Positions 2,128 to 30,038 of a stretch of 51,851 nt of DNA are shown here, in pieces. The DNA lies in assembly GCA_030430575.1 (NCBI GenBank), contig JAUIKF010000059.1, forward strand, positions 1 to 51,851, read 5' to 3'. The DNA is from Bacteroidia bacterium. Its GTDB lineage: Bacteria; Bacteroidota; Bacteroidia; J057. Each line of letters opens with the position of its first letter. Positions within the stretch are counted from its first letter, which is position 1. The position numbers and the translations under genes were made by a program. The notes under the pieces are model-generated. The model did not search any database and was not told where the DNA came from. It worked only from the letters and a program-made list of their open reading frames with translations.

Positions 2128-2856
2128 TTATTGGTGCTTAAAACGGAAGCTTACGTTAAATACGGTAGGATCGTTTAAGATTTCTTTCAATGAAGCTGAA
2201 ATTCGGACTGTCCGTTTGTCCTTCGATAATACAGCGTGTTTATTGTCAAGTTTTTTGACTTTTCCAGGTAAGTGATAGATAGTGGAAACCTTCATACTAC
2301 TGAAAGAAGTCATTAAAGCCTTTTTAAAGACATTTTCCTCAAAAGAATCTTTGGTGGAATTGGCATCAGCCTTATCTTCTTCTTTTTTAGGGCGAGGCTT
2401 CTTGTGATAGTGAAACCAAGAAGACTTCTTGGAAGCAGGAGAAATTTGGTATCCACCTGTTTGAAGCCCTGTTTGAGCCTTTAACATCGATGCAGTCAAT
2501 TTCCCTCGTGCATTTTTGATATCAGAGAAGCTGTGTCCTGTAGTAACTGTATATCCTTCTACCCGATAAAAGGCATTACTCACCCCCTCCTTTGCATTCA
2601 TCGTAATAACCAAACTCTCCGGCGTTTCTCCTTTTTGTAGGAGCCTTGATCGCATGGTATCTGCAAACTCTTCCTGGGTATAGAATTCTCCATAGAGGCG
2701 CATCATGCGTTCCATGCTGAATTTCATCTGGTATGTGCCCGTACCATCAGCGTGTAGAGTGATCTCTTCTTCAATGTCTAGACAGGAAGTTAAGACAAAG
2801 GAAGAACACAAAAATACAATTAGGGGAAATATCCTTGAATAAACATTAGTAGACAT
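2128..2856 (-). CDS. Predicted lipoprotein, first of a paralogous pair
   Basis: The 242-residue product has a hydrophobic signal (residues about 10-24) ending in LTSC, so Cys25 is the predicted lipid anchor. Shared landmarks with the downstream gene are the EEITLHADGTGTY stretch directly after the anchor and YHLPGKVKKL near residue 200, followed by a similar C-terminal strand ending in FRFKHQ. A lysine- and proline-rich linker (about residues 150-170) is absent from the shorter paralogue. It is the promoter-proximal gene of the two-gene operon. No enzymatic motif is visible, and I can only call it a surface or periplasmic lipoprotein. Confidence 0.8.
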   Translation of the reverse strand: MSTNVYSRIFPLIVFLCSSFVLTSCLDIEEEITLHADGTGTYQMKFSMERMMRLYGEFYTQEEFADTMRSRLLQKGETPESLVITMNAKEGVSNAFYRVEGYTVTTGHSFSDIKNARGKLTASMLKAQTGLQTGGYQISPASKKSSWFHYHKKPRPKKEEDKADANSTKDSFEENVFKKALMTSFSSMKVSTIYHLPGKVKKLDNKHAVLSKDKRTVRISASLKEILNDPTVFNVSFRFKHQ

Positions 2857-2891
2857 GGCCCTAATACGCGCAAAAAACGAGCAAGTTCAGC

Positions 2892-4058
2892 CTATCCAAG
2901 CTGAACTTGACGCGAAGCGCGCTTAATTATGCTTCTGGCAATTACCAATCGTTGGATCTCACTGGTTCCTTCATAAATCTCTGTGATTTTGGCGTCACGC
3001 ATGAATCGCTCTACGTGATATTCCTTCACATAACCATTCCCTCCATGGATCTGAATGGCTTCAGTAGAGCATTTCATGGCAACCTGAGAAGCATATAGTT
3101 TCGCCATGGCCGCAGCTTCTACATAGTCTTGTCCGGCGTCTTTGAGCGTAGCAGCACGCAAGCACAACAGGCGGGCAGCGTCTACTTCAGTTGCCATATC
3201 TGCCAATTTAAACTGAATTGCCTGATGATTGATGATCTCTGTACCAAAAGCTTTGCGGATCTGTGCATAGGCAAGGGCTACTTCCAAAGAGCCAGAGGCG
3301 ATGCCCAATGCTTGTGAGGCAATGCCAATACGCCCTCCATTCAAGGTGCTCATGGCAAATTTAAACCCAAAACCATCATCTCCAATTCGATTTTCCTTGG
3401 GGACGCGCACATCATTGAAATTAAGGGAATGCGTATCTGACCCACGAATCCCCAGCTTATCTTCTTTGGGGCCTACTTCAAATCCGTCCATCCCACGCTC
3501 AACGATCAGGCAGTTAATTCCTTTGTGGCGCTTCTCCTTATCTGTATGTGCCATGACCAGATAGACATCAGCGATCCCACCATTGGTGATCCAGTTTTTG
3601 GTGCCATTGACCAAGTAATGGTCTCCCATATCTACCGCGGTAGTACGCTGCTGTGTGGCATCACTACCTGCTTCAGGCTCTGACAGACAAAAGGCTCCAA
3701 TAAACTCTCCAGTCGCCAATCGGGTCAAGTATTTTTGCTTTTGCGCTTCTGTACCATAAGCCTCTAGGCCCCAAGCTACCAGCGAATTTTGGACAGAAAC
3801 AATCACAGAAGCCGAAGCGTCCCACTTGGATAGCTCTTCCATCGCCAAGACATAAGAAACAGTGTCTAAGCCTCCACCTCCATATTCAGGAGAGACCATC
3901 ATTCCCAAGAAACCTTGCTCAGCCATTTTATTGAGCAATTCACGGGGAAATTTTTGATCGCGATCTCTTTCTATGACGCCAGGTTTCAATTCATGGACAG
4001 CAAAATCGCGGGCCATTTCCTGAATCATCTGTTGTTCTTCTGTTAATTCGAAATTCAT
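2892..4058 (-). CDS. Acyl-CoA dehydrogenase
   Basis: This FAD flavoenzyme (388 aa from the chosen start) catalyses alpha,beta-dehydrogenation of acyl-CoA in beta-oxidation or branched amino-acid breakdown. The family signatures are present in order: FCLSEPEAGSDA and NGTKNWITNG for flavin/substrate binding in the middle domain, and IHGGNGYVKEY then EIYEGTSEIQRLVIAR at the C-terminus, where the Glu of YEGTSE is the usual catalytic base. Length and motifs match short-chain/butyryl-type enzymes, but chain length cannot be fixed from sequence. I chose the ATG at 4058 (MNFELTEEQQ) because family members start there; the in-frame ATG 22 codons earlier lies at the -7 promoter element. Confidence 0.92.
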   Translation of the reverse strand: MNFELTEEQQMIQEMARDFAVHELKPGVIERDRDQKFPRELLNKMAEQGFLGMMVSPEYGGGGLDTVSYVLAMEELSKWDASASVIVSVQNSLVAWGLEAYGTEAQKQKYLTRLATGEFIGAFCLSEPEAGSDATQQRTTAVDMGDHYLVNGTKNWITNGGIADVYLVMAHTDKEKRHKGINCLIVERGMDGFEVGPKEDKLGIRGSDTHSLNFNDVRVPKENRIGDDGFGFKFAMSTLNGGRIGIASQALGIASGSLEVALAYAQIRKAFGTEIINHQAIQFKLADMATEVDAARLLCLRAATLKDAGQDYVEAAAMAKLYASQVAMKCSTEAIQIHGGNGYVKEYHVERFMRDAKITEIYEGTSEIQRLVIARSIIKRASRQVQLG

Positions 4059-4121
4059 ATTAATAGGGAGATTTGATGAATGATTGATAAAGTTGCAGTA
4101 AGTGGTCTTAAAAAAAACGTG

Positions 4122-4129
4122 CAAATATA
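4122..4129 (-). promoter_or_regulatory. -7 promoter element for acyl-CoA dehydrogenase
   Basis: The minus strand reads TATATTTG, a full match to the Bacteroidota -7 consensus TAnnTTTG, followed by GCACG. Transcription would begin near 4115, leaving a leader of roughly 55 bases to the ATG at 4058. I see no convincing -33 TTG; the 14-bp palindrome at 4139-4152 occupies the spacer/-33 region. Confidence 0.55.
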
Positions 4130-4138
4130 CATCTTTTT

Positions 4139-4152
4139 AGCGAATATTCGCT
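4139..4152. promoter_or_regulatory. Candidate operator (14-bp perfect palindrome)
   Basis: AGCGAATATTCGCT is a perfect palindrome lying just upstream of the -7 element of the acyl-CoA dehydrogenase promoter, where a dimeric repressor would block RNA polymerase. Fatty-acid degradation genes are often controlled by TetR-type regulators. Which protein binds here is not visible in the window. Confidence 0.4.
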
Positions 4153-4277
4153 GGTGTTTTTTTCTTCATAATTAAACGCTAACTAAAATCTTAGATGAAC
4201 CAAAAAAGAAAACATTTTCCAAAATAATAGTTAAATTTACATAGAAAGGACCCTAATATGGCCAAAGATATTCACTA

Positions 4278-4637
4278 ATGGATAACATAGCATTAAAGAT
4301 AAACAAGCACCAAGAAATACTATCTCAATATATCAGGAAGCTCGCTTATGATCATAATAATGCATTGGGAAATAGTATGACCTATCAATCAATAATTGAT
4401 CTCCAAGAAAACCACTTCCAGCTAGTAAGAATAGGTTGGTATGAACAGCGTTTTTTATATTCTGTCTTAATTCATTTAGACATTAATCCCAAAACGGGAA
4501 ATATTTGGATTCAGCAAAATAATACAGAAATCCTATTAGATGTTGATTTAGGCAAACTCGGAATCCCCAAAAACAACCTTGTTTTAGGATTTAGACCCGC
4601 TGAAATGCGCCCCTATTCAGATTTTGCCGTTGCCTAG
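4278..4637 (+). CDS. XisI-like protein (orphan)
   Basis: The 119-residue product has the layout of the XisI family, first named as a factor controlling fdxN-element excision in heterocystous cyanobacteria. Landmarks are VRIGWYEQRFLYSVLIHLD (strand region, near residue 50), GNIWIQQNNTE and the C-terminal LGIPKNNLVLGFRPAE followed by FAVA. XisI is normally encoded next to XisH, a nuclease-fold partner; no xisH is present anywhere in this window. A second, diverged copy lies at 23988-24341. Its stop codon overlaps that of mazG: the four bases CTAG at 4634-4637 serve both genes. In Bacteroidota the role is unknown. Confidence 0.8.
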   Translation: MDNIALKINKHQEILSQYIRKLAYDHNNALGNSMTYQSIIDLQENHFQLVRIGWYEQRFLYSVLIHLDINPKTGNIWIQQNNTEILLDVDLGKLGIPKNNLVLGFRPAEMRPYSDFAVA

Positions 4638-5413
4638 TGTCCAACTCCTTCCTTCGCCTCCTGCCACCATGCTTCCATCGCCTCTAGTTCCATTTCCTTG
4701 AGCCGCTGGCCCGTTTCTTCCGCCCTCTGTTCTACATATTCAAATCTGCTTTTGAATTTTCGATTGGTGCGCGCCAAAGCATCCTCGGGGTTGATGCCTT
4801 CAAATCGGCAATAATTGACAATGCTAAAGATCACATCTCCCATTTCTGCCTCGCGATCTGCGGTGCTATTAGCTTGTTCAAATTCCGCCATTTCTTCCTT
4901 CACTTTATCCCACACTTGATCTTTATGGTCCCAATCAAATCCCACATTGGCCGCTTTTTCTTGCATCCGCATGGCCTTGATAAGCGAGGGTAAATGTTTG
5001 GGAACGCCATCTAACGTGCGTTTTTTCTTCTTTTTACCTGCATTCTCTTTGGCCTTGATCATCTCCCAATTTTCAGCGACAACCTTGGGATCATCTACAG
5101 CCTCAGGGCCATAGACATGGGGATGACGCCGGATGAGTTTTTCACATTGCGCATTAATCATCTCCGCTAATGTGAATTTTTCCTTTTCCTCTGCTAACTT
5201 CACATAAAATAAAATGTGCAATAATAGGTCACCTAATTCGATTTTGATCTCATCATAATCATTTTGGAGCACTGCATCTGCCAGTTCATAGGTCTCTTCT
5301 ATGGTAAGGTGACGCAGGCTTTCTTTGGTTTGTTCGCGGTCCCAGGGGCACTTTTGGCGGAGTTCTGAAACGATGGTGGAAAGCCGTTGAAAGGCGGTAA
5401 GGGTATCAGTCAT
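4634..5413 (-). CDS. mazG: Nucleoside triphosphate pyrophosphohydrolase MazG
   Basis: This cytosolic enzyme hydrolyses (d)NTPs to NMP and pyrophosphate and helps clear damaged nucleotides. The 259-residue protein has two MazG domains. In the first, CPWDREQTKESLRHLTIEE leads into the metal-binding EETYEL and ELGDLLLH motifs (about residues 20-68). The second starts near KAANVGFDWD (residue ~155) and carries KEEMAEFE and EAEMGDVIFS. A lysine-rich KKKKKR linker separates them. It converges on the xisI-like gene with a 4-base overlap. The ATG at 5413 gives MTDTLTAFQRL, a normal start for the family. Confidence 0.95.
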   Translation of the reverse strand: MTDTLTAFQRLSTIVSELRQKCPWDREQTKESLRHLTIEETYELADAVLQNDYDEIKIELGDLLLHILFYVKLAEEKEKFTLAEMINAQCEKLIRRHPHVYGPEAVDDPKVVAENWEMIKAKENAGKKKKKRTLDGVPKHLPSLIKAMRMQEKAANVGFDWDHKDQVWDKVKEEMAEFEQANSTADREAEMGDVIFSIVNYCRFEGINPEDALARTNRKFKSRFEYVEQRAEETGQRLKEMELEAMEAWWQEAKEGVGH

Positions 5414-28180: not shown

Positions 28181-28966
28181 ATGCAGTATACGCTTATTAC
28201 AGGTGCTAGTATGGGCATTGGAAAAGCCCTGGCAGAGGAGTGTGCTAAAGAAGGCATGCACCTTCTGCTCGTAGCCCTTCCAGGGCCTGAATTGGACCAG
28301 GTCTGTCAGGACCTTGTGGCCCGTTATGGCATTCAAGCCCACCCTTTTGCCATTGACCTAACCCTCGAAGATGCCCCGAGGAAAGTCTATGATTGGTCGC
28401 AGACCAATGGGTACGAAGTCAATATTCTCATCAATAATGCAGGATTTGGAACAGGGGGATTATTTGAAAACACGCCCTTGGCTACCTATATCAACATGGT
28501 CAGGCTCAACAATCAGGCACTTGTAGAGATGACTTACCATTTCCTTCCAGAACTCAAACGTCACAACAATGCACACCTTCTGTGTTTGAGTTCCATGGAA
28601 GCCACCCTTCCCCTCCCCTACAAGGCTGTATACACAGGCACCAAAAACTTCATTTATTCCTTCTGTCTCGCCATCCGCGAAGAACTCAGACCTTCTACAG
28701 TCAGGGTAAGCATCCTATGCCCAGGCCCGGTACTCACCAATCCCGATGGCCTCAAACGAATTGAGTCACAAGGCGGAAAAGGGCAAATTCTCATGACCAT
28801 GCCTGAAAAAGTGGCCAAAATAGCTGTCAAGAAAATGCTCCAGAACAAAGCCATCATTATTCCTGGTGCGCTGCCTATTGCGATCGTCAGAGTCCTCAAT
28901 TTATTGCCCATTTTGTGGCGAATGCGGATCCTGGAGCGGGTGTTTCGGCCGTATAGAGATATGTAG
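28181..28966 (+). CDS. Short-chain dehydrogenase/reductase
   Basis: The 261-residue Rossmann-fold oxidoreductase has the NAD(P) motif TGASMGIG (TGxxxGIG) near residue 7 and NNAGFG near 87. A catalytic Ser sits in LSSMEA and the YxxxK pair in YTGTK. The C-terminal helix rich in I/L/R (IAIVRVLNLLPILWRMRIL) resembles DltE/YqjQ-like SDRs that act on lipids, which might associate it with membranes. The substrate is unknown. It is divergent from the secreted amidohydrolase. A short repeat unit begins 9 bases after its stop. Confidence 0.88.
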   Translation: MQYTLITGASMGIGKALAEECAKEGMHLLLVALPGPELDQVCQDLVARYGIQAHPFAIDLTLEDAPRKVYDWSQTNGYEVNILINNAGFGTGGLFENTPLATYINMVRLNNQALVEMTYHFLPELKRHNNAHLLCLSSMEATLPLPYKAVYTGTKNFIYSFCLAIREELRPSTVRVSILCPGPVLTNPDGLKRIESQGGKGQILMTMPEKVAKIAVKKMLQNKAIIIPGALPIAIVRVLNLLPILWRMRILERVFRPYRDM

Positions 28967-29000: not shown

Positions 29001-29086
29001 CAGATTGAAGAAGTAATGCCTATTGGTTTTTTTCATAAAAATCCATGGCCAAAATTTGTGTAAAAATATATTAGTTTGTAATTTCG

Positions 29087-29098
29087 TTGATACATCAA
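29087..29098. promoter_or_regulatory. Candidate MarR operator upstream of marR
   Basis: TTGATACATCAA is an inverted repeat (TTGAT/ATCAA) 12 bases before the MarR start codon, overlapping the expected transcription start downstream of a -7-like TTAGTTTG at 29071-29078. A nearly identical, perfect site follows the gene at 29562-29575. Confidence 0.5.
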
Positions 29099-29109
29099 TC
29101 ATTCTACTT

Positions 29110-29544
29110 ATGAAGGACTTGCCGTTAGAGGAAGTATATGTGTATTTGTTGGAGCGGACCGCACGACAATTTCAGCGGTATGCGCAGGCTGTGATGGCCG
29201 AAAACGGCATTTATATTTCTGGTGAACAATGGGTGGTCATCAAACGGATCAGCGAAAATGAAGGTATTAGCCAACGAGAGATTGCTCATTTGACCTATAA
29301 AGATCCTGCTTCAGTGACGAGAATGCTTGATTTGATGGAAAATGAAAAGCTGGTCAAAAGGGAGAAAAGTACAAAGGACAGAAGAGTTTATGCCCTTTAC
29401 CTTACCTCTAAAGGGAAATCGCTAGTTGAAAAGATGACGCCTATCGCCCAGCAAGCCCGTGCCCATGGGCTCTCTGGCATCAATGAAGCTGACGCTGCAA
29501 AACTCAAAGTTATGCTCAACAAAATTTATCAAAATTTCAGTTGA
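29110..29544 (+). CDS. MarR-family transcriptional regulator
   Basis: This winged-helix dimer usually represses its own and neighbouring genes and is relieved by small ligands. From the ATG at 29110 it is 144 residues. Recognition-helix region SQREIAHLTYKDPASVTRMLD (about 62-82) is followed by the wing KREKSTKDRRVYALYLTSKG, both characteristic of MarR. The helical ends form the dimer interface. An earlier in-frame ATG at 29023 would run through the promoter and operator and is rejected. TTGATAnATCAA sites lie before and after the gene, pointing to autoregulation and control of the downstream gene. Confidence 0.9.
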   Translation: MKDLPLEEVYVYLLERTARQFQRYAQAVMAENGIYISGEQWVVIKRISENEGISQREIAHLTYKDPASVTRMLDLMENEKLVKREKSTKDRRVYALYLTSKGKSLVEKMTPIAQQARAHGLSGINEADAAKLKVMLNKIYQNFS

Positions 29545-29561
29545 TTTTTTTTGCCCAATTA

Positions 29562-29575
29562 ATTGATATATCAAT
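29562..29575. promoter_or_regulatory. Second candidate MarR operator
   Basis: ATTGATATATCAAT is a perfect 14-bp palindrome located 17 bases after the MarR stop and 31 bases before the next ATG. Its core TTGATATATCAA differs by one base from the site upstream of marR. Confidence 0.55.
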
Positions 29576-29606
29576 AGTATACCTATCAATCATTATTCTA
29601 TTTATT

Positions 29607-30038
29607 ATGAAAATCCTTATCGTTATTCCCATGATTTTTTATAGCCTCATGGCTATGTATCCAGGTGATTCAACTGATGTAAAAGCAGTGGAAAAGGTAG
29701 TAACATCTTTTGCGAATGGTGCTGATAATCAGGATGTAACAGCCGTAGATGCTGTACTCCATCCAGATTTCCGATCAGTAGTCAATCGCTTATTTGGAGC
29801 CGAAACAGTCAGTTTGATGGATAAACCTACTTATTTGAAGTTGTTGGAGGAGAAAAAAATAGGCGGGGATAAACGGCGCGTCCAGATCATCTCTACTGAT
29901 ATTGTGAAGAATAATGCTATAGTCAAGGTGAAATTGGTAGGTAAAAAATTGGTCTTCACTTCTTATATCTCCCTTGTGAAAGATACAGAAGAAAATTGGC
30001 AGATCATTCAGGACATGCCTGATATTGAAAAGTTGTAA
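29607..30038 (+). CDS. Exported NTF2-like (lumazine-binding-like) protein
   Basis: The 143-residue product has an N-terminal hydrophobic leader (MKILIVIPMIFYSLMAMYPG), probably a signal peptide. An NTF2-like fold follows: helix VEKVVTSFANGADNQDVTAVDAVLHPDFRSV (about 28-58), then strands RVQIISTDIVKNNAIVKVKLV and the closing SYISLVKDTEENWQIIQDM. The AxxxLHPDF start of the core is typical of the putative lumazine-binding/SnoaL-like group. The ATG at 29607 gives a clean leader; an earlier in-frame ATG overlaps marR and the operator. It is the likely target of MarR through the palindrome upstream. Ligand or reaction unknown. Confidence 0.75.
   Translation: MKILIVIPMIFYSLMAMYPGDSTDVKAVEKVVTSFANGADNQDVTAVDAVLHPDFRSVVNRLFGAETVSLMDKPTYLKLLEEKKIGGDKRRVQIISTDIVKNNAIVKVKLVGKKLVFTSYISLVKDTEENWQIIQDMPDIEKL

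Follow-up and report, generated by a model that had tools for sequence, protein, structure and literature searches.

A predicted MarR-family autorepressor with matching operators on both flanks of marR and NTF2-like or DOMON cargo genes in Bacteroidota

The marR gene in the window (the whole stretch of 51,851 nucleotides analyzed here) probably encodes an autorepressor that also represses a local cassette through two palindromic operators, O1 and O2, one on either side of the gene. From the comparison of related loci we put the probability of this reading at about 0.83. Self-repression together with repression of the next gene had been predicted from the window alone, and comparative genomics now strongly supports it: a site is found upstream in 19 and downstream in 22 of 26 marR loci, and cargo genes follow the downstream site in all 22. 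We infer that a MarR-family dimer binds TTGATAyATCAA-type palindromes on either side of its own gene, where it would repress rather than activate. Bound at O1, the dimer would sit over the start site of marR, which closely follows the -7 box, and thus repress its own gene; bound at O2 and a weaker site 15 bp further, it would close off the downstream gene's own promoter. That gene is NTF2-like in the window, and elsewhere there is often a DOMON gene plus an NTF2-like gene. A small molecule would release MarR, so that the regulator and the cargo are induced together.

Results

The operators and their genes

Two matching palindromes flank marR, at the places given for them in the original prediction. 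O1 (TTGATACATCAA, 29087 to 29098, forward strand) precedes marR (29110 to 29544, forward strand; ATG at 29110), which encodes a MarR-family winged-helix regulator of 144 aa. The prediction was right to place O1 before marR but gave the distance as 12 bases, where it is 11. O2 (TTGATATATCAA, 29563 to 29574, forward strand) is a perfect palindrome between marR and the gene for an NTF2-like (Lumazine_bd_2) protein of 143 aa (29607 to 30038, forward strand; ATG at 29607), the presumed target of MarR. The O2 core sits inside the 14-nt ATTGATATATCAAT at 29562-29575, and 32 bases separate O2 from the NTF2-like ATG. Longer frames with TTG starts extend across both operators; we prefer the ATG starts, a choice that the orthologue alignment, cited for marR, supports. 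O2 is palindromic at all positions and O1 at 5 of 6, an asymmetry that we dropped as a general rule because, over 19 two-site loci, O1 is the worse site in 7, O2 in 4, and the two are equal in 8. An SDR-family dehydrogenase gene (28181-28966 of the window) is on the same strand as marR and ends 143 bp before it; one related locus (L062) also has an SDR gene near the cassette, but on the opposite strand.

Conservation at orthologous loci

A profile built from four MarR proteins (L006, L007, L055, and L060) found 50 loci in named genomes. The 26 loci counted here are the window, G005, the first 23 profile loci (the contigs of G007 and G008 included), and G213. Excluded were L065-L091 (27 of the 50 profile loci, of lower similarity, none titled Bacteroidota), other MarR loci from genome searches, and L009 and L010, which lie on the same contigs as L055 and L060. 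L092 was added after its operator-like site was seen, which favors the count by one. A site was counted when it had at most two mismatches to TTGATATATCAA and lay within 90 nt upstream or 110 nt downstream of marR.

The original prediction had named absence of the motif upstream of orthologous marR genes as a refutation, and this is not what the loci show: the motif occurs there in 19 of the 26 (exact in 8), and downstream in 22 of the 26 (exact in 15). Dinucleotide shuffles of the same stretches (2,600 each) gave a site at two or fewer mismatches in 3.4% of cases upstream and 2.7% downstream, none of them exact, and no such site was found in 103 coding segments of marR of 100 nt each. When the four profile seeds are left out, the counts are 15 of 22 upstream and 18 of 22 downstream. 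Four loci (L047, L057, L058, and L059) have neither site; L047 encodes a MarR that is 46% identical, yet has neither site nor cargo. Three others (L050, L052, and L053) miss only the upstream site, which suggests that autoregulation through O1 is not universal. Both sites occur at related marR genes in records labelled Saprospiraceae, Lewinella, Imperialibacter, Cyclobacteriaceae, Flavobacteriales, and Chitinophagales, and also in one MAG whose record label is Calditrichia.

MarR matches at E ≤ 1e-15 turned up in 11 of 60 genomes (that of the window among them), and NTF2-like matches at ≤ 1e-8 in 4. G005, G007, and G008 carry the marR and NTF2-like genes together, with a palindrome on both marR flanks: TTGACGTATCAA and TTGATATATCAA in G005 and G008, TTGATAAATCAA and TTGATATATCAA in G007, where a third site precedes the NTF2-like gene. 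The palindrome sites are absent at the nearest MarR of G003 (37% identity).

Rarity of the site

In the window, exact TTGATAYATCAA has 3 strand matches against 0.03 expected, a number that none of 100 shuffles reached; with one mismatch allowed there are 4 strand matches against 0.88 expected, which 4 of 100 shuffles reached. The 8.16-Mb genome holds five distinct exact places, O1, O2, and three inside ORFs of 449, 301, and 292 aa. Across 22 genomes of the order, exact TTGATATATCAA occurs at 10 distinct places, 5 of which are at the marR-NTF2 loci of four genomes. Four exact TTGATATATCAA places, G020:C60:462, G020:C168:536, G014:C12:27901, and G001:C20:297823, lie in related genomes in which no NTF2-like match was found; one of these genomes, G001, encodes a MarR of 34% identity at another place.

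The original prediction also proposed that a genome-wide search would define a regulon. From such a search we claim no further target, although others may exist. The loose pattern TTGAYRHRTCAA has 39 strand matches at 31 distinct genomic places, against 11 for the reversed control. We inspected 27 of the 31, O1 and O2 among them; of the 25 others, 17 lie in ORFs of at least 106 aa, 5 in ORFs of 62-81 aa, and three (L123, L124, and L133) in no ORF. The copy 15 bp further on never exceeds 6/12 matches at these 25 places (8/12 for O2, 4/12 for O1). One of the loose-pattern places, L126, has a 7/12 match at -15.

Promoter elements and the second operator copy

The predicted -7 promoter box of marR (TAATTTCG, 29079 to 29086, forward strand) abuts O1 and agrees with TAnnTTTG at 5 of the 6 defined positions. 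Of 19 loci, 10 have a box with at least 5 of the 6 positions immediately ahead of O1 (perfect in 6), and the other 9 have no good -7 box abutting it. In Flavobacterium psychrophilum the Bacteroidota -7 box occupies -12 to -5, according to an excerpt of PMC9723704; by that reckoning O1 would span roughly -4 to +8 and cover the start site. With the -7 box abutting O1, a bound dimer would thus cover the marR start site.

At O2 the consensus reads TTTT 11-14 nt before the operator when 22 loci are aligned on it. In the window, the TTTG that closes the T-tract before O2 (29550 to 29553, forward strand) may serve as a -33 element. A perfect TAnnTTTG box near O2 is found at a recurring position in 2 of the 22 loci at most. 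O2 is followed in the window by a degenerate second copy, O2' (TATACCTATCAA, 29578 to 29589, forward strand), 15 bp after O2 and with 8/12 matches. Across the 22 loci the mean match at +15 is 7.91/12, and none of the other offsets scanned exceeds 5.73. The rise at +15 is smaller for the upstream sites (5.53/12, next highest 4.95), and O1 of the window matches at only 4/12. Two adjacent sites are said in an excerpt of PMC9892617 to be common in MarR operators.

The MarR protein

A profile scan places the marR product in the MarR winged-helix family (PF01047, 46.3 bits against a cut-off of 24.6), and its structure model (pLDDT 92.8) is predicted to have the standard MarR fold. Foldseek matches of the model include MexR, BpsR, HosA, SlyA, and a C. 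difficile MarR, with a best E of 4.5e-10, and the top match is a MexR mutant. The nearest PDB entry is 8xt8, for which our literature search found no paper. Aromatic-acid-bound entries are among the structural neighbors (salicylate in 8xu0, 4-hydroxybenzoate in 8xzu); acids bound in structures that resemble a model do not name the ligand of this MarR. The known MarR equivalogs BilQ, SlyA, HpaR, OhrR, FabT, and E. coli MarR all score far under the NCBIfam curated cut-offs (54.4 of 125 for BilQ, 25.3 of 240 for MarR).

Thiol-switch MarR proteins of the OhrR/SarZ type are defined by a sensing cysteine. The window's MarR contains no cysteine and none is conserved among 22 aligned MarR proteins, which argues against this type and favors ligand sensing over a thiol switch.

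Phylogeny and divergent operators

In a tree of 92 MarR proteins, which has few columns and many open forks, the site labels are strongly clustered: they change 13 times, against a mean of 32.5 after shuffling, and none of 200 shuffles was as low. TTGCTATAGCAA-type matches with two mismatches occur in some of the excluded loci, and these carry site labels in the tree. TTGCTATAGCAA-like palindromes were seen near homologous marR genes of Bacillota and delta-type bacteria (L066, L065, and L070); they have the same outline as TTGATATATCAA with other inner letters.

Another, well-supported Bacteroidota MarR clade of 13 rows has the upstream site only in 9 of the 13. Eight of its loci (L095, L097, L098, L100, L102, L105, L118, and L120) have, 42-61 nt ahead of the marR match, a site that differs from TTGATATATCAA at one position or none. 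These loci resemble the window in the upstream site but are mostly without the downstream one, and the tree supports no particular placement of them relative to the window clade. They have no NTF2 or DOMON profile match within 1.5 kb on either side; at the three loci scanned (L095, L102, and L105) the following gene has a match to an outer-membrane barrel, beta-lactamase-like, or S41 peptidase family.

With an NTF2 profile at 1e-18, matches were found in 14 of 395 genomes of the phylum, the window's included. In 6 of the 13 others (G213, G143, G366, G329, G274, and G394) the NTF2 match adjoins MarR or is one gene away, and the gene in between is a DOMON gene by profile in G213 and by eye in G274. 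The sites differ among these pairs. G213 has TTGATGTATCAA and TTGATGCATCAA, while G143 and G366, from one genus, have AGTTGYYYAGCTAACT sites on both marR flanks. Inspected by eye, G329 and G274 have TTAGTA-type and TTGCC-type sites, with 15-bp repeats, on either side of marR; their flank match is not significant in a motif-blind test. In G394 (L160) a downstream palindrome was seen and a matching upstream one was not. The motif-blind flank test (60 shuffles each) gave 16/18 matches in L104 and L111, the loci of G143 and G366, against a shuffled maximum of 15; L093 reached 13 (maximum 15) and L159 13 (maximum 13). Because only L104 and L111 exceed their shuffles, the comparison supports a concerted change of both operators in one genus and gives a lead elsewhere.

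The NTF2-like and DOMON cargo

The NTF2-like product matches the Lumazine_bd_2 profile (PF12893, 41.6 bits against a cut-off of 22.1) and has no NCBIfam match. Its N-terminus resembles a signal peptide, as judged by eye, and the protein is predicted to be exported. The structure model (pLDDT 89.4) resembles NTF2-like proteins to which no function is assigned, with 3fka and 3blz among the Foldseek matches, and ketosteroid-isomerase-like folds. It is similar to many pocket proteins without pointing to one ligand.

We called cargo genes by clustering neighboring ORFs, by a translated search for genes that the clustering missed, and by a profile scan. All 22 loci with O2 have cargo after it, an NTF2-like gene in 21 and a DOMON gene in 12; such cargo is present in none of the 4 loci without O2. 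Haem and sugars are known ligands of DOMON domains. In G005 and G007 marR is followed by the DOMON gene and then by the NTF2-like gene. Other genes can stand between O2 and the cargo (e.g., L061 and L063), and in L063 a RidA-like cluster member comes first after the operator. L061 has, at 2551-5053, a row of RidA-like, AhpC/TSA-like, DOMON, NTF2-like, and weak EthD-like genes after the operator. An extra exact site stands directly before the NTF2-like gene in L060 (G007), L052, and L053. In L053 (Flexithrix dorotheae) two exact sites 128 bp apart lie between marR and the NTF2-like gene (3453-3592); a DOMON gene, present in its near relative L052, was not matched here, which looks as though one had been lost from between the two sites.

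Discussion

The proposed repression of both genes has to be weighed against other roles for the same palindromes. One is that MarR binds both sites and represses itself but activates the NTF2-like gene, with O2 upstream of the target promoter. The 32 bases between O2 and the NTF2-like ATG, the conserved T-tract before O2, and promoter boxes that are not placeable with confidence at O2 would all fit such an arrangement. We consider it improbable, since most MarR proteins are repressors, as stated in the sections of PMC3737563 drawn on here, and since O2 is near the start codon (in G007, 5 bases separate its end from the ATG of the DOMON gene), a position that suits a block better than activation. 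It is highly improbable that a different regulator binds the palindromes, or that they are promoter or terminator elements unrelated to the window's MarR. O1 overlaps the predicted marR promoter, and the binding of the palindromes by a dimer of this MarR is deduced from sequence; however, the sites go with related marR genes in more than one family and are seldom found elsewhere, and on the marR tree their labels group together (13 changes, 32.5 in shuffles). As for a terminator or RNA hairpin, no terminator-like site was found, and the RNA folds no better than shuffles.

The pair in the window is convincing because of the orthologues and not by itself. In a motif-blind comparison of the window's two flanks, the best 18-nt match has 14 matches, against a maximum of 15 in 60 shuffles, and this lack of significance would fit chance palindromes in AT-rich intergenic DNA. 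Nevertheless, the expectation in the window is 0.03, the downstream site is kept in 22 of 26 loci, and the orthologous sequences already refute chance, whose probability we regard as negligible. The original prediction further suggested that one ligand is bound by both MarR and the NTF2-like protein, in which case the cassette would sense a compound and also sequester or convert it; this is an addition to the best explanation and not a replacement for it. The aromatic-acid-bound forms among the neighbors of the MarR model (8xu0 and 8xzu) and the pocket proteins among those of the NTF2 model are compatible with a shared ligand, but such neighbors are generic to both folds, and the RidA-like, AhpC/TSA-like, and weak EthD-like genes of L061 also fit it poorly; we find this addition doubtful.

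Three things that the comparison brings out go beyond the original prediction: a DOMON gene as partner, a second operator copy at +15 bp, and operators of other letters in distant pairs. A search of titles and abstract openings in one open-access library found no paper on a TTGATATATCAA-type operator or a marR-NTF2/DOMON cassette. We tentatively suggest, at a little less than even odds, that these loci represent a widespread Bacteroidota response cassette, undescribed in that library, in which marR accompanies an NTF2-like and/or a DOMON gene and is usually bracketed by matching operators, often with a second site at +15 bp, and in which the regulator and both operators have altered their letters in concert (the main clade has TTGATATATCAA, two genomes of one genus AGTTGYYYAGCTAACT, and two other genomes, by eye only, TTGCC- and TTAGTA-types). 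If this is true, the cassette would be a natural series for the evolution of MarR specificity under a fixed circuit layout. What began as a guess from one sequence becomes a local regulon that can be tested, with a defined operator, across many genomes (nearly all of them labelled Bacteroidota), and two poorly understood families of predicted exported proteins, NTF2-like Lumazine_bd_2 and DOMON, would be tied to a sensor with a screenable ligand.

Similar switches are known outside the Bacteroidota. MexR of Pseudomonas aeruginosa, as described in part of PMC9892617, is a MarR dimer on inverted GTTGA sequences and resembles the window's system in having two sites that overlap the promoters of its own gene and of its target; MexR controls an efflux pump, whereas the window's cassette contains no efflux gene. 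The likeness to the MarR-family protein SCO3205 of Streptomyces coelicolor is closer in layout. According to the portions of PMC3737563 cited here, SCO3205 has two operators, for its own gene and for a neighbor; they were predicted, as here, by comparing orthologous upstream regions, and the footprinted O3204 contains the core TTGAACTCTCAA. The two systems have the TTGA-N4-TCAA layout in common. The SCO3205 neighbor is divergent and resembles an extradiol dioxygenase, while the presumed target in the window is co-directional and downstream, and belongs to the NTF2-like/DOMON cargo. By this analogy, the best reading is that the window's system is of the SCO3205-like kind, with its own operator letters and its own cargo. 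This layout is ordinary for MarR proteins, and its presence in many related bacteria suggests a real, but ordinary, kind of gene switch.
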